From: Chitinophagaceae bacterium
Lineage (GTDB): Bacteria > Bacteroidota > Bacteroidia > Chitinophagales > UBA10324
Length of the DNA: 64,000 nucleotides
Reading direction: 5' to 3'
NCBI GenBank assembly: GCA_947469485.1
Contig: CANIPU010000005.1
Location: forward strand, 1 to 64,000
In this document: positions 17,370 through 19,176 of the stretch, piece after piece
Numbering within the stretch: the first letter of the stretch is position 1
Layout: every line of letters begins with the position of its first letter
Program-made: the position numbers and the translations under genes
Notes under the pieces: generated by a model
What the model was told of the DNA's origin: nothing
The model's database searches: none
The model's input: only the letters and a program-made list of their open reading frames with translations

Positions 17370-17443
17370 GCCGATGTAGCTCAGTTGGCCAGAGCTACTG
17401 ATTTGTAATCAGTGGGTCGGGGGTTCGAATCCCTCCATCGGCT
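17370..17443 (+). tRNA. tRNA-Thr (TGT)
   Basis: Acceptor GCCGATG/CATCGGC, anticodon stem ACTGA/TCAGT with loop TTTGTAA, T-loop TTCGAAT, discriminator T. 74 nt. First tRNA of the cluster before tuf. Confidence 0.95.
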
Positions 17444-17458
17444 CATTGTTTAAGGAAT

Positions 17459-17541
17459 GGGGAGATTCCAGAGTGGCCAAATGGGGCAGACTGTAAATCT
17501 GTTGTCTTACGACTTCGAAAGTTCAAATCTTTCTCTCCCCA
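17459..17541 (+). tRNA. tRNA-Tyr (GTA)
   Basis: Acceptor GGGGAGA/TCTCCCC, anticodon loop CTGTAAA, and a long variable arm (around TGTCTTACGACTT) as expected for class II bacterial tRNA-Tyr. 83 nt, 15 nt after tRNA-Thr. Confidence 0.95.
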
Positions 17542-17671
17542 CTTGATTGAGTTGAAATGTTCTTTTGCTCATGATAAAATTGTTCTTTGAAAATGAAGTG
17601 AAATCAATCACTTCTTTTAGAAATTGAAAGGAGAAATCAATAGAATGGTTTCTTTAGATGAAAATTATCAG
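17542..17671 (+). promoter_or_regulatory. Structured spacer inside the tRNA cluster
   Basis: The 130 nt between tRNA-Tyr and tRNA-Gly contain GAAGTGA-AATCAA-TCACTTC, a perfect 7-bp hairpin, and TTGTTCTTTGAAAA just before it, which resembles the boxA-like motif in Bacteroidota stable-RNA leaders. Both point to RNA processing or antitermination. No coding frame. Confidence 0.45.
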
Positions 17672-17744
17672 GCGGGAGTAGCTCAGTTGGTAGAGCATCA
17701 GCCTTCCAAGCTGAGGGTCGCGGGTTCGAGTCTCGTCTCCCGCT
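17672..17744 (+). tRNA. tRNA-Gly (TCC)
   Basis: Acceptor GCGGGAG/CTCCCGC, anticodon stem TCAGC/GCTGA with loop CTTCCAA, T-loop TTCGAGT, discriminator T. 73 nt. Confidence 0.95.
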
Positions 17745-17756
17745 CTAATTTTTTAA

Positions 17757-17829
17757 GCCAATGTAGCTCAGTTGGTAGAGCACATCCTTGGTAGGGATGA
17801 GGTCACCGGTTCGATTCTGGTCATTGGCT
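17757..17829 (+). tRNA. tRNA-Thr (GGT)
   Basis: Acceptor GCCAATG/CATTGGC, anticodon stem CATCC/GGATG with loop TTGGTAG, T-loop TTCGATT, discriminator T. 73 nt. Second Thr tRNA; the order Thr-Tyr-Gly-Thr-tuf is ancient and widely kept in bacteria. Confidence 0.95.
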
Positions 17830-17852
17830 CATCAGAAGCAAAAAGAGGAAAT

Positions 17853-17929
17853 GTTAATTTAGCTCAGTGGTAGAGCAGACTTAATCGAAAGAATAAGAAA
17901 GATTGCCGGTTCGAATCCGGTTATTAACA
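17853..17929 (+). ncRNA. tRNA-like element with an abnormal anticodon region
   Basis: The acceptor stem (GTTAATT/TATTAAC, 6 of 7 pairs), a perfect D-arm (GCTC-AGTGGTA-GAGC) and a perfect T-arm (GCCGG-TTCGAAT-CCGGT) are those of a tRNA. The 27 nt between the D- and T-arms exceed the usual 22, and no 5-bp stem with a 7-nt loop and U33 can be drawn. They can instead fold as CTTA-A-TC-GAAA-GA-A-TAAG, a broken stem capped by a GNRA loop. It lies 59 bp before tuf. It may be a degraded tRNA, or a tRNA-shaped leader or processing signal for tuf. It cannot decode in the normal way. Confidence 0.65.
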
Positions 17930-17988
17930 CAAGGTTAAAACCTTAATTAAAATTTTAAAACAATCACAACAAATTAAACAACACAAGC

Positions 17989-19176
17989 ATGGCAAAAGAA
18001 AAATTCGAACGGACCAAACCCCATGTTAACATCGGTACAATCGGGCATGTGGATCACGGTAAAACTACCTTGACTGCTGCTATTACGGAGGTATTAGCTA
18101 ACAAAGGACTTGCTCAAAAGCGTTCATACGACTCAATTGACTCAGCACCTGAGGAAAAAGAGAGAGGTATTACAATTAATACAGCGCATGTTGAGTACGA
18201 AACGGCCAATCGCCACTATGCGCATGTGGACTGTCCTGGACACGCCGATTACATCAAGAACATGGTTACAGGTGCCGCCCAAATGGATGGTGCAATCATT
18301 GTAATTGCTGCTACTGATGGTCCTATGGCTCAAACTCGTGAACACATTCTTCTTGCTCGCCAAGTAGGTGTTCCTTCATTGGTTGTATTCTTGAACAAAT
18401 GCGATTTAGTTGACGATCCAGAATTACTCGAATTAGTAGAAATGGAGGTTCGCGAATTGCTTAGTTTCTATAAATTCGATGGTGATAAAATCAAAATCAT
18501 TCGTGGTTCTGCTTTGAAAGCATTGAATAAAGATCCAGAAGGAATTAAAGCTATCGAAGATTTAATGGAAGCAGTTGATACTGAAATTCCAATTCCTCCT
18601 CGTGCAAAAGACAAACCTTTCTTAATGCCGGTTGAAGATGTGTTCTCGATCACAGGTCGTGGAACTGTTGCTACAGGTCGTATTGAAAGAGGTGCAATTC
18701 ACACAGGAGATCCTGTTGAAATTGTTGGTCTCATGGATGCTTCTTTAAAATCAACTGTTACAGGTGTTGAGATGTTCCGTAAAATTCTTGACGATGGAGA
18801 AGCCGGCGATAATGTTGGTTTGCTTCTTCGTGGAGTTGAAAAGGATGACATCCGTCGTGGCATGGTAGTTTGTGCCCCAGGTTCAATTACTCCACATACT
18901 GATTTCAAATGTGAGGTTTATGTTCTTTCTAAAGAAGAGGGTGGTCGTCATACTCCTTTCTTTAACAAATATCGTCCACAGTTCTACATGAGAACTACAG
19001 ATGTTACTGGAGAATGTGAATTACCAGCAGGAATTGAAATGGTTATGCCTGGTGATAATGTGTCAATAATTGTTAAACTCATTACTCCGGTAGCTATGGA
19101 AAAAGGTCTTCGTTTCGCAATACGCGAAGGAGGTCGTACTGTAGGTGCGGGTCAAGTGACTGAAGTAATTAAATAA
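17989..19176 (+). CDS. tuf: Elongation factor Tu
   Basis: 395 residues. G-domain motifs are intact: GHVDHGKTT (about 19-27), DCPGH (about 81-85), NKCD (about 136-139) and GSALKAL. The switch I region ([16 protein letters not shown]) and domains 2 and 3 follow with normal length. It delivers aminoacyl-tRNA to the ribosome with GTP. It is preceded by four tRNAs and a tRNA-like element and followed by a structured spacer and tRNA-Trp, so a long RNA that is cut into tRNAs and mRNA is likely. Codon use is biased, as for highly expressed genes. Confidence 0.98.

Follow-up and report, generated by a model that had tools for sequence, protein, structure and literature searches.

The window, the whole 64,000-nt stretch of DNA analysed here, carries at 17370–17830 a Thr(UGU)-Tyr-Gly-Thr(GGU) tRNA cluster of the type common ahead of tuf, followed by a tRNA-like element (TLE) and, after a gap of 59 nt (17930–17988), by tuf itself, which encodes EF-Tu, the most abundant translation factor. 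A sequence-only reading of the window had placed the element after these four tRNAs and 59 bp before tuf, and this placement was borne out. Scans of the locus for promoters and terminators gave nothing clear. The features, all on the + strand, are as follows.

17757–17830, +, tRNA-Thr(GGU), likely parent of the TLE (called by ARAGORN and Rfam; of the tRNAs found in the genome, the closest to the TLE arms)
17853–17929, +, TLE, whole element (kept in 6/6 members of the genus)
17853–17859, +, acceptor stem, 5' strand GUUAAUU (partner 17922–17928; 6/7 pairs in the window genome, 7/7 in three congeners)
17862–17876, +, D arm GCUC-AGUGGUA-GAGC with G18G19 (stem invariant within the genus)
17880–17897, +, central hairpin CUUAAUC-GAAA-GAAUAAG where a tRNA has its anticodon arm (stem of 7 bp in each of the six genus members, with one A-A mismatch in the window genome only)
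17887–17890, +, GAAA loop of the central hairpin (invariant)
17905–17921, +, T arm GCCGG-UUCGAAU-CCGGU (5/5 pairs in all six genus members)
17922–17928, +, acceptor stem, 3' strand UAUUAAC (the discriminator position is 17929)
17931–17944, +, short hairpin AAGG-UUAAAA-CCUU directly 3' of the TLE (pairs invariant in the six congeners)
17945–17988, +, remaining tuf leader (conserved in the genus; mean identity of 17948–17988 is 92%, against 64–73% for the inter-tRNA spacers)
17989–19173, +, tuf, a 395-aa frame (99–100% identical in congeners, about 80% across the order)

An Infernal search of the region with the Rfam tRNA model (RF00005, curated cut-off 29 bits) matched 17853–17929 with 44.2 bits (E 9.6e-8), the anticodon arm being the unaligned part. 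This match and the predicted cloverleaf agree with the earlier description of the acceptor, D- and T-arms as tRNA-like. ARAGORN, run on the window region, called the four upstream tRNAs and missed the TLE. The 78-nt strand of the element is predicted to fold into an acceptor stem of 6 bp, a D arm of 4 bp, a central hairpin closed by a GAAA loop and a T arm of 5 bp, with an energy of −17 kcal/mol (z −2.2 relative to shuffles). The D- and T-arms had also been described as perfect, which holds for the D stem and for the pairing of all five T-stem positions, except that one of these is a G-U pair in the window genome; at the base of the acceptor the same genome has a U-U mismatch (7-66). The centre had been read as a broken stem with a GAAA loop where an anticodon arm should be. 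The loop and the missing anticodon arm stand; the break is the A-A mismatch, which is private to the window genome, and in the five congeners the same loop caps a 7-bp stem that has no break.

The element therefore has the cloverleaf of acceptor, D and T arms that a functional tRNA requires (Rfam, 44.2 bits) and none of the anticodon features, namely a 5-bp stem, a 7-nt loop, U33 and an anticodon, the loop being of 4 nt (GAAA) in the six genus members. With no anticodon, it is ruled out as a functional decoding tRNA. Nor does it supply a missing decoder, as the 24 other tRNAs and the eight of the window include both Thr(UGU) and Thr(GGU). The TLE is single-copy in the window's genome, where a model built on the genus scored it at 113 bits and the next matches, which were ordinary tRNAs, reached no more than 41 bits.

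Conservation in the window's genus and family

All six members of the window's genus (g1), the window genome and five others, carry the TLE with the same GAAA loop, and alignment of these relatives revealed neither an ordinary tRNA at its site nor a lack of conservation. Mean identity across the six genomes was 93% for the TLE, 92–95% for the leader between it and tuf, and 64–73% for the spacers between and before the tRNAs, with the four true tRNAs identical throughout. Two pairs of the central stem vary yet stay paired in the other congeners (A-U, G-U and U-G at one, U-G, C-G and U-A at the other). The covariation check that had been suggested for this hairpin gave a signal not above shuffles, the variation among the six genus genomes being too little.

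At the level of the family, a TLE lies at the tuf front in ten of the 13 genomes in which this front was readable. The carriers belong to four genera, g1 (six genomes), g6 (G010), g2 (G006 and G013) and g4 (G008); no TLE was found at the tuf front of G007, G011 and G014. The T stems still pair despite divergence (GCCGG/CCGGU, AUUGG/CCAAU, UUCUG/CGGAA and UCCUG/CAGGA), and the central stems of the two g2 genomes read CCUGC/GCAGG and GCUGC/GCAGC, respectively. GG is present in every D loop (9/9 of the tabulated family elements), and the T loop is UUCGAAU in 6/9, that is, in g1 and g6, and is changed to AUCGUNN in g2 and G008. The acceptor of G008 has 4/6 pairs unless one base is bulged. At the place of the AAGG/CCUU hairpin, directly 3' of the TLE, hairpins of other sequence are found in G010, G006 and G013, so that this position is occupied by a hairpin in g1 and these three genomes, with a sequence differing between g1, G010 and g2. 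In G008 (L046), an upstream CCCGGUU is complementary to AACCGGG in the central arm of the TLE, and the species could thereby alternate between two folds.

A DNA similarity search across the order returned clear matches in the genus only, because the other elements have diverged, and a search of IMG/VR returned no close copies of the genus-type element. The genus-built model (R1) also picks up ordinary tRNAs and cannot by itself map the distribution of the TLE, for which reason the spacers were inspected directly.

The element in Chitinophaga

The TLE was present in 79/79 genomes of Chitinophaga (g90), all of which were searched. The D stem GCUC/GAGC, G18G19 and the T loop UUC(A/G)A occur in every one of them; the scan pattern required all three, and no genome failed it. 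Of the 44 arm haplotypes, 43 have a T stem free of mismatches; A-U, G-U and G-C alternate at its variable positions, the changes fall on both sides of pairs, and compensatory changes are seen in both the T and the acceptor stems. Acceptor and T pairing in the larger clade reached 0.902, compared with 0.869 (sd 0.007) for re-paired strands, of which 0/2000 were as high, in a test that relatedness inflates. One mismatch or bulge is usual in the acceptor stems of clade 1 (29/34 haplotypes). Identity within the genus is about 80% for the TLE arms, 38% for the centre, 31% for the spacer between tRNA-Thr and the TLE, 83% for the leader to tuf and 98% for tRNA-Thr. Over both groups, the family and Chitinophaga, the central loops range from 3 to 18 nt, and just six of the 79 distinct centres have the canonical 7 nt; these 79 centres tend to fold as hairpins (mean z −2.1).

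The acceptor, D and T arms of the TLE are under purifying selection. Since the centre drifts and the arms are retained, the element has neither an anticodon arm selected for decoding nor the character of a dead gene. The sequence-only reading had offered a decaying fifth tRNA as one option and had itself argued that the kept arms speak against simple decay; its conservation in one family and in the 79 genomes of Chitinophaga rejects the option and upholds the argument. A functionless, decaying tRNA pseudogene would account for the missing anticodon and for a divergence faster than that of true tRNAs (about 80% identity in the Chitinophaga arms versus 98% in tRNA-Thr). Such a pseudogene would show no constraint on its arms, but every one of the 79 Chitinophaga genomes, and four family genera as well, retains them in paired form beside a flanking spacer of 31% identity, with compensatory changes in the T and acceptor stems, which makes decay extremely improbable.

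The pairing of the Chitinophaga acceptor also bears on attenuation. Two partners would here compete for the 3' acceptor strand, its usual one in the tRNA fold and a CCGUU that lies downstream ahead of a U-run, and the tRNA fold would act as antiterminator by a T-box-like logic. Matched changes occur in clade 1 (AACGG/CCGUU, AACUG/CAGUU and AACGGC/GCCGUU; L285 and other loci), the alternative helix is often the one preferred by RNAfold, and its mean score in this clade was 11.4 versus 10.4 for re-assigned partners, with 1/1000 as high, again in a test inflated by relatedness. The signal is, however, absent in clade 2, where 903/1000 re-assignments scored as high, and no terminator-like site was detected in the window region or in L285, so we regard an attenuator as very unlikely.

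The Chitinophaga tuf fronts (L249–L321) have GUUUG(UAAA) directly 3' of the TLE and, some 20 nt ahead of the tuf start, (UUU)ACAAAC. Pairing of GUUUG(U) with ACAAAC is possible over a loop of ~30–40 nt, and both strands are present in all of the Chitinophaga leaders listed; as both hardly vary, they allow no covariation test of the helix. In the same set ARAGORN labels 32 of the 79 elements as tRNAs, with scattered anticodons and including six of ‘Stop(tta)’, and a ‘tRNA-Cys’ in Chitinophaga record L119 is at the same place as the TLE. Annotations of Chitinophaga may thus contain false tRNAs or suppressors that derive from TLEs, which is a warning to annotators.

Origin and position relative to tuf

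Among the tRNAs found in the genome, the one closest to the arms of the window TLE is the adjacent tRNA-Thr(GGU) (score 27.5, next 21.5). Some TLEs of Chitinophaga clade 2 have the acceptor GCCGAU/AUUGGC, the type common in tRNA-Thr(GGU) elsewhere (GCCGATG in 23/86), and the working tRNA-Thr(GGU) of Chitinophaga (e.g. L286) has, wherever found, the acceptor GCUGUUG/CAACAGC, unlike that common GCCGAUG type. To judge from these similarities, the TLE is likely to be a former copy of the tRNA-Thr(GGU) gene that has lost its anticodon arm. There may have been one inherited element or two origins, and the conversion of a tRNA gene to a TLE possibly happened more than once within the Chitinophagales.

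We also scanned 92 further spacers between Thr(GGU) and tuf for the T arm and D motif; they came from other Chitinophagales, from other Bacteroidota and from a small number of outsiders. No additional TLE turned up, the sole yield being a Gly tRNA in swapped order. The order of tRNA-Gly and tRNA-Thr(GGU) is swapped in L212, L244 and L106, with Gly tuf-proximal at about 60–75 nt before tuf; some tRNA is there again at about the usual distance from the gene.

From the end of the TLE to the tuf start codon there are 67–81 nt (median 72) in Chitinophaga and 59 nt in the window. The distance from Thr(GGU) to tuf has a median of 62 nt in the 86 TLE-less spacers and is 167–380 nt in Chitinophaga. The TLE is thus at the usual distance of tRNA-Thr from tuf and the working Thr further upstream, and therefore the fold seems to have been kept in the tuf-proximal place: the TLE seems to hold the place of tRNA-Thr, with the decoding copy upstream. 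No other observation hints as strongly as this position that a tRNA fold next to tuf serves the gene independently of decoding.

Possible roles in the tuf transcript

On balance, we lean towards a TLE that acts in cis within the tuf transcript and has been retained because of its tRNA fold, either for processing by RNase P and RNase Z or as a 5'-end module. Both enzymes largely ignore the anticodon arm of a tRNA. A role in processing is favoured because the conserved acceptor/T helix and D-T elbow are the parts recognised by RNase P and RNase Z. Features of the elbow are read by both (PMC11693755), and bacterial RNase P has non-tRNA mRNA substrates (PMC4919922). The TLE has what would be expected of a processing element: the acceptor/T helix and the elbow are kept and the anticodon is dispensable, it is homologous to a tRNA gene, being closest to Thr(GGU), and it sits at a putative mRNA end, 59 nt from tuf. 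A tRNA mimic that guides processing had been one of the suggestions of the sequence-only reading, and with its conserved elbow and acceptor/T helix it appears to be the best-supported one, although the cleavage itself is a step that we infer.

In such a mechanism, the elbow and the acceptor/T helix of the TLE would recruit RNase P to its 5' end and possibly RNase Z to its 3' end. Cleavage at a constant site would separate the tuf mRNA from the tRNAs ahead of it, and the processed mRNA would gain a defined, structured 5' end. A working tRNA-Thr some 60 nt before tuf may do the same job itself in most relatives; in the TLE lineages, the job would have stayed at the tuf-proximal place and decoding would have been left to the upstream copy. 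The helix abutting the 3' side of the TLE (AAGG/CCUU, or GUUUG(U)/ACAAAC in Chitinophaga) might stabilise the new 5' end or block RNase Z, and the TLE would be either cut off or retained on the tuf mRNA as a 5' cap. Several points call for caution: the usual mismatch or bulge in the acceptor could weaken cleavage, the abutting helices could hinder RNase Z and so leave the TLE on the mRNA, the T loop is changed in g2 and G008, and the element is absent in three genomes of the family and in other genera of the order. Release of the TLE as a stable small RNA with a function of its own in trans, the link to tuf being secondary, would have a parallel in tRNA-like products such as mascRNA (PMC11693755); the continuation of the conserved block into the tuf leader and the near-fixed distance to tuf point to a role in cis, and we consider a trans-acting product improbable.

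The other suggested mimic would sense EF-Tu. The TLE would then stay in the tuf leader, where an excess of free EF-Tu would bind the acceptor/T helix and lower tuf expression by negative feedback. EF-Tu contacts the acceptor and T stems, and the D arm and elbow are not needed. The acceptor and T arms are retained in the TLE, which is a single copy in the window's genome directly in front of tuf, but conservation of the D arm and of the G18G19/T-loop elbow is at least as strict as that of the acceptor, which tolerates mismatches and is the looser part of the element. In most predicted folds, roughly half or more of the nucleotides at −20 to −1 before tuf are unpaired (mean 0.40–0.84), so no obvious mechanism of sequestration presents itself. 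Autoregulation of tufB in Salmonella, for which a reference is cited in PMC6134099, is a precedent, yet the comparisons yielded no positive evidence for a sensor and we hold it to be quite unlikely. A decoding-dead tRNA that acts as a leader domain of tuf, senses either EF-Tu itself or how tRNA processing stands, sets the supply of EF-Tu and has arisen possibly more than once in Chitinophagales is an unlikely reading; if true, it would mean that bacteria have a real tRNA mimic regulating EF-Tu.

Returning to processing, our best reading is that the TLE may add a new variant, from bacteria, to the tRNA-derived processing elements, as a counterpart of t-elements and mascRNA. No tRNA-like element tied to tuf was found in open full-text papers, a scope that excludes most subscription journals. 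The 79 genomes of one genus and the four genera of another family form a natural experiment that separates two roles of tRNA genes in mRNA operons, decoding and the marking of RNA ends, and they make it testable whether the tRNAs ahead of tuf in many bacteria are kept for mRNA processing.

T-box leaders and the thrS operator are alike in placing tRNA-related RNA logic in the leader of a translation gene. T-boxes, however, bind tRNA rather than mimic it, and what the thrS operator mimics is the anticodon arm, which the TLE lacks. We know of no anticodon-less fifth element in the enterobacterial tufB operon. This operon, thrU-tyrU-glyT-thrT-tufB, has the same order Thr-Tyr-Gly-Thr-tuf and a tuf mRNA that needs separation from the tRNAs (PMC6134099), but it contains four working tRNAs only. 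Plant mitochondrial t-elements (e.g. 5' of cox1) are tRNA-derived folds that define mRNA ends without being charged or decoding, and cleavage by RNase P and RNase Z can set these ends (PMC11658184). The TLE differs in being bacterial, in preceding one essential gene, in its conservation across a genus and a second family, and in a cleavage that we infer. In mascRNA and menRNA (from MALAT1 and MENbeta), the acceptor, the T arm and the elbow of G-G and T loop are likewise kept, a longer stem with a compact loop replaces the anticodon arm, and the animal mascRNA can define an RNA end without being charged (PMC11693755). The D arm of mascRNA is reduced, however, and that of the TLE is full; mascRNA is also without the tRNA junction linkers. 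As to source, mascRNA originates in the 3' part of a eukaryotic lncRNA, whereas the TLE probably derives from the tRNA-Thr next to it and is located in a 5' leader.
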